Part shown: positions 5,127 to 20,334 of the stretch, piece after piece | Numbering within the stretch: position 1 is the stretch's first letter | How the letters are laid out: each line of letters opens with the position of its first letter | NCBI GenBank assembly: GCA_021850095.1 | Contig: JAJZRX010000001.1 | Location: forward strand, 62,001 to 126,000 | Direction: 5' to 3' | DNA length: 64,000 nt | DNA from: Deltaproteobacteria bacterium | GTDB lineage: Bacteria; Desulfobacterota; Desulfuromonadia; Geobacterales; Pseudopelobacteraceae | Made by a program: the position numbers and the translations under genes | Notes under the pieces: generated by a model | What the model saw: only the letters and a program-made list of their open reading frames with translations | Database searches by the model: none | What the model was told of the DNA's origin: nothing

Positions 5127-6176
5127 ATGCAGAAGGGAAAACCGTCCAAAAAATATTCCCAGGCGGGAAGACTGCACTCGATCATCCGGCTGCTGGAAAC
5201 CAGGCGCGGTCTGACGCTGGATGAACTGGCCGAAGAGTGCCGGGTTGACCGGCGCACGATCCACCGCGACCTGAATGCGGTGGAGGAGGCCGGCTACACC
5301 CTGACATCCGAATGGTGCGAAGGTAAAAAAGTCTACAGCTTTCTCAACAGATCGCGCAACATTCCCCCGATCACCTTTTCCCTGCAGCAGATGATGTCGC
5401 TCTACCTGCTCCGGTCGCTGGGTTCCCATCTGGCCGGTACCCCTTTTCTGGCCGAAATCGACGATCTCTTCCGCTCGATCAACTCGGTTCTGCCGGATCG
5501 TTACGCCGCCCACCTGGAGCGGATTGCGCGGGTGTCGCTGCCAATTTTGCACGGAGCCCGGGATTATTCCCGCTCGGCGGCCCATCTGGCGGAGCTGCAG
5601 CGGGCGCTGCTGCACCAGTACCGCATCCGCCTCAGTTACGCCAAAAAGAACAAGGGCGAGCCCGATCAGTACCAGCTCGATCCCTATACCCTGGTTTTTC
5701 ACAAGGGGGGCATTTATCTGCTGGGGAATGCCCATAATCGCAGTGCCCTGCGTCTCTTTGCGCTGGAGCGGATCTGCGGTGTGGAGGTCACTCGTCAGCG
5801 TTTCGAGATTCCCAAGGAGTACCAGCCGGAAGAGCATTTCAGCAGTGCTTTCGGCCTGGTCCGTGACAAACAGTTCAAGGTGCGGGTGCGATTTTCAGCC
5901 GATGTGGCTCATGCCATCCAGGATCGGATCTGGATGCCTGGACAGACGACCAGCAGCGACGGCGAAGGGCGGGTAACGGTCGAGTTTGAGGCGGCCGGGC
6001 AGATGGAATTGGCTTCCTGGGTGCTTTCCTATGGCGCCCACGCCGAGGTGCTGGAACCGCCCGAACTGCGCCGGGAGGTCAAACGTCAGGTCAAGGAGAT
6101 GCGCGAGTTCTACCGCAGCAAGGAGAAGGAGATCGACAAGAGTGAGAAGAAGGGCAAGCGCCTGCAGCTGCGCTAG
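5127..6176 (+). CDS. HTH/WYL-domain transcriptional regulator
   Basis: 349 residues. The N-terminal winged HTH (residues about 12-65, LDELAEECRVDRRTIHRDLNAVEEAG) resembles DeoR/HTH_11. A WYL domain (about 140-225, with YQLDPYTLVFHKGGIYLLGNAH) and a C-terminal WCX extension follow. The start is ATG at 5127 behind AAGGAGGAA. WYL proteins often bind nucleotide or nucleic-acid ligands and control stress or defence genes, but no obvious target lies next to it. It ends in a hairpin shared with the convergent dcuB. Confidence 0.85.
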   Translation: MQKGKPSKKYSQAGRLHSIIRLLETRRGLTLDELAEECRVDRRTIHRDLNAVEEAGYTLTSEWCEGKKVYSFLNRSRNIPPITFSLQQMMSLYLLRSLGSHLAGTPFLAEIDDLFRSINSVLPDRYAAHLERIARVSLPILHGARDYSRSAAHLAELQRALLHQYRIRLSYAKKNKGEPDQYQLDPYTLVFHKGGIYLLGNAHNRSALRLFALERICGVEVTRQRFEIPKEYQPEEHFSSAFGLVRDKQFKVRVRFSADVAHAIQDRIWMPGQTTSSDGEGRVTVEFEAAGQMELASWVLSYGAHAEVLEPPELRREVKRQVKEMREFYRSKEKEIDKSEKKGKRLQLR

Positions 6177-6248: not shown

Positions 6249-7577
6249 CTAAAAAATCATCCTCGAAATCGCATAGGCCACCACGGTTGAAACGCTGACC
6301 CCTACAAGCCCTGGAATCATGAAGCTGTGATTGAGCAGGTACTTGCCGATGCGGGTTGTGCCGGTGCGGTCCATGTTGATTGCGGCCAGGTCGCTGGGGT
6401 AAAAGGCGAAGAAGAAGTAGGCGTAGCTGGCCGGCATCAGGCCCAGCAGCAGCGGGATCGGCAGTCCCAGCGCCAGTCCCAGCGGCAGCGTGATGGCCAG
6501 CGTGGCGGCCTGACTCTTGACAAAGGCCGAGATGCAGAAGGTAGCGATGGCAAAGGTCCAGGGGGCGATCTTGACCATGATGCCGATATTGTCCACCAGG
6601 AATTTCTTGTTGGCCGAGATGAAGGTGTCGCTCATCCAGGCGATGCCAAAGATCGATACGACCGCGATCATGCCGGCGATGAAGACGCTGGAGTGGGCGA
6701 TGTCCTTGGCCTTGACATCGGCGGTAAACATGATGAAGGCGCCGTAGGCCAGCATGACGAACTGTACGACCGTTGTCATGGCAACCGGTTTCTTGTCGGC
6801 CGTCAGCGGCAACAGCTCGGGAAGACTTGCCAACAGAATGATCGAGCCGACGCCGGCGAAGAACAGCGCCACCGAGATCTTGGCGGTGGTGGAGATCTTT
6901 TTGTTCAGGGTCGTCACATCCGCATCCAGTGCTTTCTTGAAATCCGGATCCTGCAGGCGGGCCTGGAATTCGGGATCCTTGTTCAGGTCTTTGCCGCGGT
7001 TGAAACTCCAGGCGGCCGCCGCCAGCACGCCGATCACGCCGGCCGGCATGGTGACCGAGATGATATCGATCAGTGTCACCGGATAGCCGGCCTTGGCGGC
7101 AAAGCCGAGGAAGAAGGTCACTGCCGCCGCCACCGGACTGGCGGTGATGCCCATCTGCGAGGCGACGCTGGAAATGGCCATCGGCCGCTCGGGGCGGATG
7201 CCGGTTTTGAGCGCTACGTCGGAAATAACCGGCAGCAGCGCATAGACGGCATGGCCGGTGCCGCAGCAGACCGTCAGGAAGAAGGTCGAAAGCGGCGCCA
7301 GGATCGTTACGTATTTGGGGTGGGCACGCAGCAGCTTTTCGGTCAGCTGCACCAGATAGTCCAGGCCGCCGGCCACCTGCAGCGTGGCCGAGGCGGTCAC
7401 CACCGCCAGGATGATCAGCATGACCGCGATCGGCGGCTCGGAAGGTGGGCTGCGGAAGCCCAGCACCAGCAGCGAAACGCCCAAGCCACCGATCAGGCCG
7501 AGCGCGACGCCGCCCCGGCGGATACCGATCAGAACAGCTCCCAGCACCAGCACGAATTGAACCCAGAACATTAGCAT
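6249..7577 (-). CDS. dcuB: anaerobic C4-dicarboxylate transporter, DcuA/DcuB family
   Basis: 442 residues with 10-12 membrane segments. It has the DcuA/B family pattern: an N-terminal GxxxGGxxLGLxGGLGV region, ATLQVAGGLDYLV, HPKYVTILAPL, CGTGHAVYALLPVI and SSVASQMGITASPVAAAV. It should exchange or import fumarate, malate and aspartate against succinate in the inner membrane. The start is ATG at 7577 behind GGAGG, not the upstream GTG. It is controlled by a sigma-54 promoter at 7649-7665 with three palindromic sites further upstream, and faces a kinase/activator operon. Distinguishing DcuA from DcuB is not possible here; DcuB is inferred from the regulated context. Confidence 0.9.
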   Translation of the reverse strand: MLMFWVQFVLVLGAVLIGIRRGGVALGLIGGLGVSLLVLGFRSPPSEPPIAVMLIILAVVTASATLQVAGGLDYLVQLTEKLLRAHPKYVTILAPLSTFFLTVCCGTGHAVYALLPVISDVALKTGIRPERPMAISSVASQMGITASPVAAAVTFFLGFAAKAGYPVTLIDIISVTMPAGVIGVLAAAAWSFNRGKDLNKDPEFQARLQDPDFKKALDADVTTLNKKISTTAKISVALFFAGVGSIILLASLPELLPLTADKKPVAMTTVVQFVMLAYGAFIMFTADVKAKDIAHSSVFIAGMIAVVSIFGIAWMSDTFISANKKFLVDNIGIMVKIAPWTFAIATFCISAFVKSQAATLAITLPLGLALGLPIPLLLGLMPASYAYFFFAFYPSDLAAINMDRTGTTRIGKYLLNHSFMIPGLVGVSVSTVVAYAISRMIF

Positions 7578-7648
7578 AACGACCTCCACGGCGAGGGATG
7601 AGATTGGCGGGACGGTCAGGTCTCCGCATTGTTTCTGTTCTGATGCAG

Positions 7649-7665
7649 AGCAGGGAGAGTGCCAA
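7649..7665 (-). promoter_or_regulatory. sigma-54 promoter of dcuB
   Basis: The minus strand reads TTGGCACTCTCCCTGCT, with the -24 element TGGCAC and the -12 element CTGC. The invariant GG and GC are separated by exactly 10 nt. The predicted transcription start is near 7640, about 60 nt before the dcuB ATG. Confidence 0.75.
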
Positions 7666-7741
7666 TCCGGCCAAATCTTGCAAGATCCTGAAACAACTAG
7701 GTAAAGTGCGGTTGGCTGGATTGAGTGAAATGGAAAATGTC

Positions 7742-7846
7742 ATAACCGGCAGTTATGACGAGCAGGCGCTATTCGGGTTATGTCCTTTAATTTCATTTGG
7801 TTAGCTGTCAATATAACCGCTGGTTATGGTTATAACCTCTGGTTAT
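7742..7846. promoter_or_regulatory. three ATAACC-N3-GGTTAT palindromes (probable activator binding sites)
   Basis: The three 15-bp inverted repeats are ATAACCGGCAGTTAT (7742-7756), ATAACCGCTGGTTAT (7813-7827) and ATAACCTCTGGTTAT (7832-7846). The last two overlap a central GGTTATAACC, and a half-site GGTTAT lies at 7776-7781. Centres fall about 110, 180 and 200 bp upstream of the predicted dcuB start site, the usual distance for enhancer-binding proteins. The best candidate ligand is the Fis-type HTH of the response regulator at 8317-9732; this is inference. The rest of the 7578-7991 gap shows no other clear element. Confidence 0.7.
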
Positions 7847-7991
7847 GGGGTGCGGAGGAGTCGGCAGGGGCTCGTTTCCGGGTAGATGCAAATGGCGCAG
7901 GTTACAATTGCTACTTTCAGAAAATTGTGTCTTTGATGCTGCAAAATTGTCCATTGAACTGCAGACGGGTTAGAGCGAAAGGAAAGTATCC

Positions 7992-8297
7992 ATGGGAATT
8001 GAGGTCTATGTGGGGCAGATTTCCGGGCTGGTGACGGAAGATGAAGTGCGGAAATTGTTCTCCGTGGTGGGGACGGTGGAGTCGATCCATCTGGTGATCG
8101 ATTCGGACTCAGGTGAATTCAGGGGCTGCGGATATGTCCGGATGTCAAGCGAGGAAGAAGCACGGGAGGCGATCGATCTGTTGAACGGAGCCCTGCTGGG
8201 CGACCGCCAGATTGTCGTAAAAAACGCCCCTCCCAAAAGCAGCCAGAAAAGCGGGGCATCCGGCGGCGGTCGGAGCGGCCGTGGCGGAATAAAGTAA
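7992..8297 (+). CDS. RRM-domain RNA-binding protein
   Basis: 101 residues. A single RNA-recognition motif spans residues 3-82, with RNP2 (VYVGQI) and RNP1-like (FRGCGYVRM) segments. A Gly/Ser/Arg-rich tail follows (SGASGGGRSGRGG). Bacterial glycine-rich RRM proteins are often cold- or stress-induced RNA chaperones. In RNP1 the usual aromatic (GFGFV) is replaced by Cys (GCGYV), which may weaken stacking. The start at 7992 has AAGGAAAG upstream. It diverges from dcuB and converges on the activator gene. Confidence 0.85.
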   Translation: MGIEVYVGQISGLVTEDEVRKLFSVVGTVESIHLVIDSDSGEFRGCGYVRMSSEEEAREAIDLLNGALLGDRQIVVKNAPPKSSQKSGASGGGRSGRGGIK

Positions 8298-8316: not shown

Positions 8317-9732
8317 TCACTCCTTCAGCATCTTCAAACGCTTGGAAAGGGCCGGCTGGGAGATGCCCAGAAGCCGTGCCGCCAGGGTCTGGTTGCCGCC
8401 GGCCCGCTCCATCGCCTCCAGCACCAGAAAGGCGGCCGCATCGCTGAAGGTTGGCAGTTCGTCGAACCCGGCAAAAGGGTTCTGGCGGGCCGAGTTGGCC
8501 CCGGTCGTCGGGCATTCGGACTGCAGCCGTTCAACCGACTTGACGAAAGTTTCCATCGAAAGCATCCGGTCGCGGTGCACGCTGACCGCATCGTAGACCA
8601 GCGCCTTCAGTTCGCGGACATTGCCAGGAAAACAGTAGGTCGCCAGATACTGGGCCAGCCCCTTGGGGGGCGTCGGTTTCTTCTTGCCCAGGGCCCGGGC
8701 CGCTTCATCCAGAAAGTGATCCAGCAGCAGCGCGATATCACCCCGCCGTTCACGCAGCGCCGGCAGCTGCACCTGATGGGTCCGCAGCCGGTAGTACAGG
8801 TCGCGTCGGAAGATCCCGCTGCGCTCCTTCTCGGGCAGGTTCTGGTGGGTGGCGACGATTACACGGGCTTTGAGCCGCTTGGGCAGGTCGCTGCCGAGCG
8901 GGAAATATTCACCCTCCTGCAGCAGCCGCAGCAGCTTGACCTGGGAAGGGATGCTCAGGTCGCCGATCTCGTCCAAAAACAGCGTGCCGTCGGCAGCTTC
9001 CTCCACCATCCCCCGCCGGGCCTGCTCGGCACCGGTGAAGGCACCCCGGACATGACCGAAGAGCGTGTCGGCAAAAACGGTGTCATCCAGCCCGGCCACG
9101 TTGACCGTCACCAACTTGCCGCGACAGCCGCTCAGGCTGTGGGCGGCCTTGGCGATCAGCTCCTTGCCGACTCCGCTTTCGCCGGTGATCAGCAGCGGCT
9201 GGGGGCTTTTGGCGACCGCCTCCACGTAGGAAAAAATATCCAGCATGGCCCGGTCGGCGGTGACGATCCCGGTAAAAGCCTCGGGATGGCGCAGTTCCCG
9301 CGAAACCAGGCGGCTGGACATCTCCTGGTAATCCCGCCGCATCTCCACCATCCTGACCGCCCGCAGCACCGCCCCCACGATCCGGTCTTCCTCGTCGGTC
9401 TTGACGCAGTAGTCGAAGGCGCCCAGCTTCATGCAGCGCACCGCGGTTTCCAGCTGGTTGAGGCCGCTGACGACAATCACCAGCATTTCGGGATGCCGTT
9501 CGGCGATCTGTTCCAGCAGTGCCTCCCCCGACAGGTGCGGCATGGTCAGGTCCAGCAGCACCAGCCCGACCTGGCCGCCATCCAGGACCGTCATGGCCTG
9601 GCGGCTGTCGCTGCAGGTCAGGATGTTGCTGATGTTGGCGCAGGACTCCAGTGTCAGCGAGAGCGAACCGAGCCAATCCGGCTCGTCATCGACCAGCAGA
9701 ACGCTGAAATCGGGGTAGGTCGCGTTTTTCAT
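8317..9732 (-). CDS. sigma-54-dependent response regulator (NtrC/DctD type)
   Basis: 471 residues. The N-terminal receiver (about 8-125, LLVDDEP and LLDLTMPH with the phosphoacceptor Asp) is followed by a sigma-54 AAA+ domain (about 155-390). That domain has Walker A GESGVGKE, an intact GAFTGA loop and Walker B LFLDEIGD. A C-terminal Fis-type HTH reads NQTLAARLLGISQPALSKRL. The start ATG overlaps the kinase stop by 4 nt, so they are translationally coupled partners. It should activate sigma-54 promoters, and the dcuB promoter 650 bp away is the obvious candidate. Confidence 0.92.
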   Translation of the reverse strand: MKNATYPDFSVLLVDDEPDWLGSLSLTLESCANISNILTCSDSRQAMTVLDGGQVGLVLLDLTMPHLSGEALLEQIAERHPEMLVIVVSGLNQLETAVRCMKLGAFDYCVKTDEEDRIVGAVLRAVRMVEMRRDYQEMSSRLVSRELRHPEAFTGIVTADRAMLDIFSYVEAVAKSPQPLLITGESGVGKELIAKAAHSLSGCRGKLVTVNVAGLDDTVFADTLFGHVRGAFTGAEQARRGMVEEAADGTLFLDEIGDLSIPSQVKLLRLLQEGEYFPLGSDLPKRLKARVIVATHQNLPEKERSGIFRRDLYYRLRTHQVQLPALRERRGDIALLLDHFLDEAARALGKKKPTPPKGLAQYLATYCFPGNVRELKALVYDAVSVHRDRMLSMETFVKSVERLQSECPTTGANSARQNPFAGFDELPTFSDAAAFLVLEAMERAGGNQTLAARLLGISQPALSKRLKMLKE

Positions 9733-11480
9733 CTGTTCTCCTCCTCTGGGACGGTTGGCAGTGTCAGCGTGACGTCCGTTCCGCGGCCGGGGATCGAATC
9801 GAATTCCAACATGCCGCCATGCTCCTTGACGATGCCGGCCGAAACCGACAGCCCCAGTCCGGTGCCTCCCGTGTCACGCTTGGTCGTGAAAAACGGGTCG
9901 GTCAGGCGCGCCAGATTTTCAGGCGCAATGCCGCTGCCCTCGTCTCGCAGCCGGAAGGTGACGGTGCCGCGCTCCCGGTCGTAACTGGTGGTCAGCTGGA
10001 TGGCCCGGCTGATGTCCGGCAGGGCCTGGCAGGCGTTCAGGATCAGGTTGACCAGTACCTGCTCGATGCGCTGGCTGTTGCCGCGAATCCCGGGCAGCTC
10101 CTCGGCATACACGGCAGAGAAACGAACCGTGGCCTTGCGGATCGAGGGCTCCACCAACCGTACGGCCGCCTGGGCCACGGCGTTCAGGTCGACGATCTCG
10201 TTAAGCGAGCTGTTTCCCTGGCGGGCAAAGTCCTTCAGGTCATCCACGATCCGTTTGATGCGCTTGCCGGCCTCCTGCAGCTTCTCCAGGCTGCGCGGCA
10301 CCTCCTCCCGCATGCGCGAATAAGGCAAGCCACCGCAACTGAAGTCGCCGTTCTCGCGGTAATACTGTTCCAGCACCTTGGCCGCATCGGCCTGGAAACG
10401 CTTCAGCGTCGGCACTTCCAGCAGGATCAGGCCGGTCGGGTTGTTGATCTCGTGGGCCACCCCCGAAACCAGCACCCCCAGGGCGGCCATCTTGTCGGCC
10501 TGCAGCAACTGCTGCTGGTTCAGACGCAGCTCCTCCTCGGCGTGCCGCCGCTCGGCGATCTCGCGGGTCAGGTCGGCGGTGCGCAGGGCCACCTGGCCGT
10601 GCAGGGTCCGCGACCAGAGCGCAAAACCGCCCAGAAGCAGGATCAGCGGCACCACGACAATCGCCGCGTACCTGGCGATCGTGCGCAGATCCACCGGCTG
10701 CGGTTCCAGCACCCCCAGCCATTTGTTGTAGATCAAGCTGTACTGGCCGGTTTTCTTCAGAATCGCCAGCCCTTCATTGAAGCGCGAAAGCAGCTCGGTG
10801 TTGCCCTTGCCAACCGCATAGCAGTAGCGCTGGGTAGCCACGTTGCGCACGACCGGAATCAGGTTGGTCAGCTTCAGTTCACGGATGATGTACATGCCCG
10901 GCACGATCGCCACGATGGCGTAGTCGGTCGTGCCGGCCGCCAGTTGGCGCAGCGCATCGGCCGGGGTCTCGGTCAGGGTCAACCGGCCGCTGAATTTATG
11001 GCTGACCAGGTAGTCGTGCATGATTCCGCCCCGGTGGACGGCCACCGTTCTTCCTTCCAGTTCATCCAAGGCGTTGACGTTGGGGGAATCGCGGCGGGCG
11101 AAGACGGCGTGATTGACGATCGTGTGGGGCAGTGAAAAATCGACCTGGCCGGCCCGCTCCTCGGAATAGGACATGCCCTGCAGCACATCGATTTTCCCAC
11201 GCTGGAGAGCTTCCCGCATTTCGGCCCAGCTCCCCAGGCGGAACTGAACCTTGATGCCCATAACCTCGGCGATTGCCTTGGTCAGTTCGACGTTGTAGCC
11301 GCTGGGCTGGCCGTCTTTATCGATGAATTCATAGGGGGGATAGTCGCGGTCGCCGCCGACGACGATGACCGGGATTTTTTCGGTGGGAGGTGGTACGGCT
11401 GCAGCCGTGATCGGAAAGAAGAAGCACAGGCCGATTATCAACAGCAACCGCCAGACCTGTGCTTCTCCCGGGAACAGCAT
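9729..11480 (-). CDS. sensor histidine kinase with periplasmic solute-binding domain
   Basis: 583 residues. A signal peptide (LLLIIGLCFFFPITAAAV) leads into a family-3 solute-binding domain (about 35-255, DYPPYEFIDKDGQPSGYNVEL). A membrane helix follows near 275-295, then HisKA (GVAHEINNPTG, phosphoacceptor His) and HATPase_c (N-box LILNACQ, G boxes DEGSGIAP and GGTGLGLSVS). The binding-protein fold suggests direct sensing of an amino or dicarboxylic acid in the periplasm. The start ATG shares one base with the nadA stop (TGATG), and the 3' end overlaps its cognate regulator. Confidence 0.9.
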   Translation of the reverse strand: MLFPGEAQVWRLLLIIGLCFFFPITAAAVPPPTEKIPVIVVGGDRDYPPYEFIDKDGQPSGYNVELTKAIAEVMGIKVQFRLGSWAEMREALQRGKIDVLQGMSYSEERAGQVDFSLPHTIVNHAVFARRDSPNVNALDELEGRTVAVHRGGIMHDYLVSHKFSGRLTLTETPADALRQLAAGTTDYAIVAIVPGMYIIRELKLTNLIPVVRNVATQRYCYAVGKGNTELLSRFNEGLAILKKTGQYSLIYNKWLGVLEPQPVDLRTIARYAAIVVVPLILLLGGFALWSRTLHGQVALRTADLTREIAERRHAEEELRLNQQQLLQADKMAALGVLVSGVAHEINNPTGLILLEVPTLKRFQADAAKVLEQYYRENGDFSCGGLPYSRMREEVPRSLEKLQEAGKRIKRIVDDLKDFARQGNSSLNEIVDLNAVAQAAVRLVEPSIRKATVRFSAVYAEELPGIRGNSQRIEQVLVNLILNACQALPDISRAIQLTTSYDRERGTVTFRLRDEGSGIAPENLARLTDPFFTTKRDTGGTGLGLSVSAGIVKEHGGMLEFDSIPGRGTDVTLTLPTVPEEENR

Positions 11481-18906: not shown

Positions 18907-20334
18907 TCATGCCCTTTCACTGCGCACCGTTTCAATCAGCCGGTTCCTCAGCTCGTTCAGCCCTGCGGAAATGGAGACCTTGTAGCGGTGGGGGTTGATG
19001 AAGCGCAGACAACCCTGCGGCAGTCCGGCCAGCTGACCTGCACTCCGTTCGGCCATTGCGTCCAGCGTTTCGGGGAGTGCAGTTCGAGAGCCCTTTTCCA
19101 TCACGATACGGCGCAATTCGTGAAAGGTCACCTGTGCCGGGAGTTTCGTCTGCTGGAGCGGATTGCAGGGATCGTAGATCGTATCGCCGCCGCACACATT
19201 ATCCTGCTCCAGGCAGATCACATCCTGCAGCAGACCGCCATCCGCTCCCAGCACCCTCAGGACACGTTTCTTTCCCGGCAGGGTGGCTTTGGCGATGTCG
19301 CTGGTGACTTTGAATTTTGGCACGCCGTCCACCGACACCAGCTTGTAAACCCCGCCCAGTGCCCCGCCTCCCGGTCCGCTGCAGGTGGCCAGTTTCGTGC
19401 CGACACCATAGATGTCCACCCGTCCCCCTTCGGCCCGGATTGAATTGATTACGAACTCGTCCAGTTAGTTGGAGGCCACGATCTTCACTTCCGGGAAACC
19501 GGCTTCGTCAAACATCCGGCGACTCTCGCGGGAGAGATAGGCGAGATCTCCGGAATCCAGACGCACACCGCGCAGTTCATGGCCACGGGTTCGCAGTTCG
19601 CCGGCCACGGTAATGGCATTGGGAATTCCGCTCCCGAGGGTGTCGTAGGTATCCACCAGCAGGATGGTACTGTCGGGGAATGCGTCTGCATAGGCCCGGA
19701 AAGCAGCCAGTTCGTTCGGGAAGGCCTGCACCCAGCTATGGGCGTGGGTCCCGCGCAGCGGCACTCCATAGAGCATCCCGGCCTGCACGTTGCTTGTGCT
19801 GCGCACGCCACCCACGCAGGCTGCCCGGGCGCAGGAGACCCCGCCGTCCGGTCCTTGGGCCCGGCGCAGGCCGAACTCGATTACCTCCGCTCCGGCTGCC
19901 GCATGATTGATGCGGGCCGCCTTGGTGGCCGCCAGGGTCTGGAAGTTGATGATATTCAGCAGTGCCGTCTCGACGAACTGCGCCTCGGCCAGGGTGCCTT
20001 CAACGGTCACCAGTGGCTCGTTGGCGAACACCGCTGTTCCCTCCGGCGGCGCAGTCACCGTTCCGCGAAAACGAAATTCGCGCAGGAACTCGATAAAGCG
20101 GGTTTTGAATATTCCAAGATTCTGCAGGTATACCAGCTCTTCCGAAAGAAAATACAAATCTTCCAGATAGTTAAGGGCCGGTTCCAGTCCGGCAAAAACG
20201 GCGTAGCCCCCCTCGAAGGGATTTGTGCGGAAGAATAGGTCGAAAACCGCCGGTTTTTCAGACATCCCCTCCTCCAGGTATCCGGCCAGCATGGTCATTT
20301 CGTACAGATCTGTCATCAATGGAGAATAGCGCAT
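18907..20334 (-). pseudogene. pncB: nicotinate phosphoribosyltransferase, interrupted by one in-frame TAA
   Basis: The two ORFs 19465-20334 and 18907-19419 are in the same frame and together make a full-length, about 475-residue enzyme ([19 protein letters not shown] ... LRNRLIETVRSERA). Family motifs include [28 protein letters not shown] and [12 protein letters not shown]. Only the codon at 19465-19467 breaks it: ...KIVASN-TAA-LDEFVINSIR, where active homologues have a residue between ASN and LDE. A single C-to-T change (CAA to TAA) would explain it. It could be a fresh nonsense mutation, a sequencing error, or read-through; no further damage is seen. Product role: NAD salvage with pncA. 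Confidence 0.8.

Follow-up and report, generated by a model that had tools for sequence, protein, structure and literature searches.

The dcuB gene of this deltaproteobacterium, which encodes a fumarate/succinate exchanger, is preceded by a set of palindromes and a sigma-54 promoter element. Which protein reads these palindromes, which signal does it answer and what keeps it from the sites of a closely related regulator? The window, as the term is used here, is the whole stretch of DNA that was analysed, 64,000 nucleotides in length, and all positions refer to it. It is considered highly probable that dcuB has an enhancer and promoter driven by the adjacent two-component system, and that the spacer of its operators is matched to the class of the activator.

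In Escherichia coli, dcuB is under the two-component control of DcuS/DcuR, and in rhizobia the DctB/DctD pair exerts two-component control over dctA through a sigma-54 activator. The dcuB gene of Geobacter sulfurreducens (GSU2751) is essential for fumarate respiration and is transcribed from an RpoN-dependent -24/-12 promoter mapped by primer extension, with a gene for an enhancer-binding protein upstream (Leang et al. 2009, PMC2725144). The locus described here resembles it in having both the -24/-12 element and an activator gene upstream. No operator was found in the main text of that paper, from which the terms 'palindrom', GSU2753 and GSU2755 are absent. In Geobacter bemidjiensis, both dcuB and dctA follow, on the 3' side, a sensor-regulator pair of their own. 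The two pairs are similar, each consisting of a kinase of the periplasmic-binding type and a response regulator, and have been proposed as parallel signalling pathways; the section of the genome paper on this organism mentions no operators, sigma-54 array or spacer difference (PMC2996986). For Geobacter, then, both this type of promoter and a sensor-regulator pair linked to it have been published, and it is the operators that appear to be new. A sequence-only reading of the locus had called their consensus unlisted, and neither the operators nor a 15/14-bp difference between them turned up in a search confined to the text of open-access papers.

The dcuB promoter and its operator array

The features of the promoter region are as follows.

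6249–7577, minus strand: dcuB, gene for a 442-aa anaerobic C4-dicarboxylate exchanger, with its ATG at 7577
7650–7664, minus strand: sigma-54 -24/-12 element TGGCACTCTCCCTGC (TGGCAC-N5-CTGC), assigned from sequence and conservation
7742–7756, no strand assigned: operator O3, ATAACTGCCGGTTAT on the minus strand, one mismatch, centre at about -111, conserved at 71 bp from O2
7776–7782, plus strand: lone half-site GGTTATG, assigned from sequence, direct-repeat family D4
7813–7827, no strand assigned: operator O2, exact ATAACC-N3-GGTTAT, centre at about -182
7832–7846, no strand assigned: operator O1, exact ATAACC-N3-GGTTAT, centre at about -201, 4 bp from O2

The dcuB product matches Pfam DcuA_DcuB (E 2.5e-140) and exceeds the cutoffs of the NCBIfam models NF009136 (626 bits, cutoff 396) and TIGR00770 (462, cutoff 331), which identifies it as a Dcu-family exchanger. 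The sigma-54 element is read from 7664 to 7650, lies 72 nt 5' of the dcuB ATG and has a gap of exactly 10 nt between GG and GC that is kept in orthologues, nearly all of the orthologous dcuB genes inspected having TGGCAy-N5-yTGC at about -87 from the ATG. As a bare consensus the element is not rare, the window containing 50 matches with up to two mismatches against about 82 expected and thus no enrichment, and its weight comes from its position and conservation. Operator positions are counted from a predicted transcription start, 12 nt downstream of the GC. On this count the palindromes fall where the sequence-only reading had placed them, at about -110, -180 and -200, and its sigma-54 element with exact 10-nt spacing is likewise borne out. 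It had also spoken of three palindromes of identical type, which is true of the type; the sites themselves are two exact copies and one with a mismatch.

Further conserved or repeated sequences surround these elements. An inverted repeat, CAATCCGGCCAA / TTGGCTGGATTG at 7663–7674 and 7712–7723, overlaps the upstream edge of the sigma-54 element. The dcuB promoters of relatives contain a conserved block of roughly ATTnnnGnnnnTTACAnA about 25–45 bp upstream of the -24 motif (about 7675–7705 in the window), and a second one, CTATCnnnnTGAAAT, just inside O2. Both blocks are possibly DNA-bending sites; a by-eye comparison with the IHF consensus was not convincing.

A comparison of about 140 genomes supports the reading of promoter, operators, activator and sensor kinase, and with it the sequence-only view of the region and most of the mechanism that this view had proposed. 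In four related families of Geobacter-type bacteria the array is kept at the majority of dcuB promoters, with two or three palindromes upstream at nearly all inspected dcuB promoters linked to close orthologues of this activator (class A, see below). Its geometry is close to fixed throughout the bacterial order: O1 and O2 are 19 bp apart in 28 of 34 dcuB arrays, O2 and O3 71 bp apart in 25 of 33, and the distance from O2 to the sigma-54 element is 161–165 bp in 31 of 34. Enhancer sites for sigma-54 activators are usually thought to tolerate movement, which makes such rigid spacing notable. Within the dcuB operators the arms are conserved and the three central bases variable. The palindromes also precede a second Dcu carrier that is only about 45% identical, and one genome (G043) has degenerate operator sites only.

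A few sites lie in other settings. In G051 (locus L056), exact 15-bp sites at 9478 and 9604, 126 bp apart, directly follow a class A activator gene; the stretch fetched contains no dcuB, and the dcuB of that genome lies elsewhere with an array of its own. At two loci (L064 and L065) a single 15-bp-type site is found about 200–400 bp upstream of the kinase gene, which possibly reflects autoregulation of the kinase-activator genes.

The sequence-only reading had proposed a genome search for the operator pattern, and this found the exact 12-letter form twice in the 3.4-Mb genome, both times at dcuB. None of eight other sites with one mismatch has a second site in an array, and a sigma-54-like element accompanies just one of them within the stretch checked, at a distance of about 320 bp. 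As they lack an array, and nearly all lack a sigma-54 element, these eight are treated as chance matches and rejected as further regulon members. In this genome dcuB appears to be the only member of the regulon. Within the window, AAAACCGCCGGTTTT at 20243–20257 matches the operator pattern with two mismatches and is without a partner site. The exact pattern is present at least once in 30 of 76 genomes from the family, and the reversed control pattern in 4. A scan of 84,980 species with a 24-letter paired pattern gave 27 records, all from Geobacter-type bacteria or Deltaproteobacteria/Desulfuromonadales.

The adjacent kinase and activator

Upstream of the array lie three further genes.

7992–8297, plus strand: gene for an RRM-domain protein (Pfam RRM_1), separating the activator gene from the dcuB promoter
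8317–9732, minus strand: class A sigma-54 activator with receiver, AAA+ (GAFTGA) and Fis-type helix-turn-helix domains (Pfam Response_reg, Sigma54_activat, HTH_8)
9729–11480, minus strand: sensor histidine kinase with a periplasmic SBP_bac_3 domain (Pfam SBP_bac_3, HisKA, HATPase_c)

The kinase and activator genes overlap by 4 bp and are read in the same direction as dcuB. The 3' end of the activator gene is 653 bp from the -24 element, in agreement with the roughly 650 bp given by the sequence-only reading, and the kinase with a solute-binding sensor domain that it had seen near dcuB is matched by Pfam as a family-3 (Venus-flytrap) SBP_bac_3 protein. A receiver, an AAA+ domain with GAFTGA in the translation and a Fis-type helix-turn-helix make the regulator an activator of the NtrC type. 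The label 'DctD-like' given to it earlier describes its mode of action well but not its membership, as the best NCBIfam models are AtoC and NtrC, both below cutoff, and DctD is not among the 25 best matches. The system shares with rhizobial DctB/DctD the two-component organisation, the sigma-54 activator and a dicarboxylate carrier as target, but differs from it in its SBP_bac_3 sensor and in having no DctD model among those matches. Two-component control of dcuB is common to this locus and to E. coli DcuS/DcuR; unlike a DcuR-type regulator, which has no AAA+ domain, the regulator here has a full sigma-54 AAA+ domain (the contrast is also drawn in PMC2725144).

In the proposed mechanism the kinase would respond to a ligand in the periplasm, most likely a C4-dicarboxylate, and pass the signal on by phosphorylating the activator. 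Dimers of the activator would then bind the 15-bp sites O1 and O2, which form a side-by-side pair, as well as O3, 71 bp nearer the promoter, and the bound activators would assemble into an AAA+ ring. By looping to sigma-54 polymerase at 7650–7664, the ring would start transcription of dcuB.

The signal may be approached through the sensor domain, whose closest solved relative is PDB 3h7m (E 1.8e-101), presumably the HK29 domain of G. sulfurreducens, a related domain of a different protein. In the amino-acid binding pocket of family-3 proteins an Arg binds the carboxylate and an Asp the alpha-amine. An alignment of 87 sensors with AncQR, an ancestral amino-acid binding protein, shows Arg109 in every one of them, whereas 86 have Ala in place of the amine-binding Asp (Ile or Met at this position in pairwise alignments). 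Given the missing Asp and the targets DcuB and DctA, a C4-dicarboxylate, as the sequence-only reading had predicted, is the best guess for the ligand and most likely the correct one, the missing Asp being compatible with a dicarboxylate without proving it. The circuit might also be built as described and its sensor answer an amino acid such as aspartate, or some other cue. The sensor does belong to the family-3, amino-acid type of solute-binding domain, and the HK29 domain has been reported as closed and unliganded in a BvgS paper (PMC4352136); a sensor unable to open is conceivable. A cue of this kind is nevertheless considered unlikely in view of the pocket residues and of the fact that both classes of target are C4-dicarboxylate carriers.

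Operator length across activator classes

Class A is made up of activators linked to dcuB that share about 74% identity or more with the one described here and are its close orthologues. Class B comprises paralogous activators, 67–73% identical, that lie mostly beside dctA, the gene for the C4-dicarboxylate symporter. In the stretches fetched, class A loci contain 87 exact sites of the 15-bp type and one of the 14-bp type, and class B loci 56 of the 14-bp type (ATAACC-N2-GGTTAT) and one of the 15-bp type, counts that do not represent independent events because the two classes are mostly two large clades. Class B arrays have the same layout, with O1 and O2 mostly 18 bp apart, O2 and O3 mostly 69 bp apart and the sigma-54 element 159–164 bp from O2; at dctA promoters O3 is often degenerate. 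In a tree of 95 activators the 15-bp and 14-bp types fall on opposite sides with the exception of L163, and a few activators have no operator sites in the stretch fetched. L163 (G083) is a class A locus with a mixed array near locus position 5985, upstream of a dcuB-like gene, in which a 14-bp O1 is accompanied by two 15-bp sites with one mismatch each. The genome studied here has no detected dctA and no class B activator in an assembly that is 90% complete, and it yields fewer matches to the 14-bp pattern than to the reversed control; a 14-bp circuit was rejected for this genome on these grounds.

A third class, C (L175, L176, L178, L179, L188 and L191), has TTAAC-N4-GTTAA sites at all six of its loci, ten in total and with no ATAAC-type site among them, and its activator adjoins dctA in four of the six. 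Around the remaining activators (L138, L180, L174, L074, L177 and others) a de novo scan detected no operator array; the same scan recovers the arrays of L035, L069 and L178 but misses that of L188, whose sites were seen by eye.

The clearest separation of gene from activator is provided by one genus (G060, G063, G067, G069, G072 and G073). Its dcuB is nested among the 15-bp dcuB genes, but a search of these genomes for a class A activator found none, and the activator beside or near dcuB has the signature residues of class B. All exact operators found upstream of dcuB are 14-bp sites, three in four of the genomes and two in the other two. A gene of the 15-bp type is thus combined with a class-B-type activator and 14-bp operators, which argues that length follows the activator and not the gene. 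The activator tree places these activators within class B, but an AU test does not reject a single clade of all dcuB-linked activators (p-AU 0.226, lnL 16.5 lower); a regulator swap at dcuB in this genus is therefore favoured and not proven.

In the proposed scheme the class A activators of dcuB would read 15 bp and the class B activators of dctA 14 bp with the same half-sites, in which case a difference of one base pair would probably insulate one circuit from the other. The difference could also be a by-product of two old promoter lineages that does not prevent cross-binding. The division of A and B into mostly two large clades and the outcome of the AU test are in line with a by-product, but in the genus above, whose dcuB is nested among genes of the 15-bp type, the exact sites found are all 14-bp, arrays with shortened operators mostly retain the 4 bp between O1 and O2, and both circuits coexist with differing operator lengths within one genome (e.g. 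G010, G018, G001 and G025). The by-product reading is accordingly held to be doubtful, though it deserves some credence.

Since operator length follows the type of activator, the adjacent activator is very probably the protein that binds the palindromes. Their occupation by some other DNA-binding protein, with the activator binding elsewhere, is very unlikely; examples of such a protein would be a repressor and the WYL regulator whose gene spans 5127–6176. The WYL gene adjoins dcuB, and binding of the activator here is itself a prediction, but where orthologous loci retain the sites, no WYL homologue above the 40% cutoff is found next to them. Moreover both the length of the operators and their outer base follow the activator type, including in the genus with 14-bp dcuB operators and in class C, and positions from -110 to -200 at a fixed distance from the sigma-54 element fit an enhancer. 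That the sites serve the RRM gene and not dcuB is hardly credible. The two genes diverge from a common intergenic region, and the RRM gene occurs in this genome and two close relatives, with L035 and L036 among the loci that have it, but most other orthologous loci lack it and still preserve both the operators and their spacing from the sigma-54 element of dcuB. The RRM gene is probably outside the dcuB circuit, and as circuit partners both it and the WYL regulator were rejected because they are not conserved alongside the operators.

Spacing, letters and a probable separation of paralogous circuits

If the activators do bind these sites, their DNA-binding domains may be expected to hold the reason for the difference in length. 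Classes A and B scarcely differ at residues 451–462, and their recognition helix is essentially identical. Within the DNA-binding domain, the positions that separate the two most consistently are 423, 425 (E/R), 434 (A or G/E), 435 (F/L) and 450 (L/I), while the helix-turn-helix of class C is changed at N447V, T449A and Q459A/P. In an alignment with Fis, extended by the same offset, 434/435 lie opposite Fis 60/61, in a helix that in Fis helps to build the dimer, and 447, 449 and 459 lie opposite Fis 73, 75 and 85, which are known DNA-contact positions. This placement suggests that one part of the domain sets the spacing and a separate part the letters, as judged from few evolutionary events.

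It is proposed that the recognition helix would specify the letters of the half-site (ATAAC or TTAAC) and that residues of the helix before it (434/435), together with 425 and 450, would specify the spacing, 15 or 14 bp. Taken jointly with the insulation of the DcuB and DctA circuits by 1 bp and the conversion of the dcuB array under a class-B-type activator, this two-part code is considered somewhat more probable than not to hold in full.

These palindromes may be the operator that has been missing for dcuB, and they reveal a nearly fixed enhancer geometry in a class of promoter that is usually regarded as flexible. They also touch on the long-standing question of how duplicated regulators avoid each other's sites. 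Shared half-sites, a near-identical recognition helix, a spacer difference of 1 bp and at least one lineage in which the operators have changed together form a matched natural set, to which the third class adds a changed helix with changed letters, and this makes specificity by spacing directly testable.
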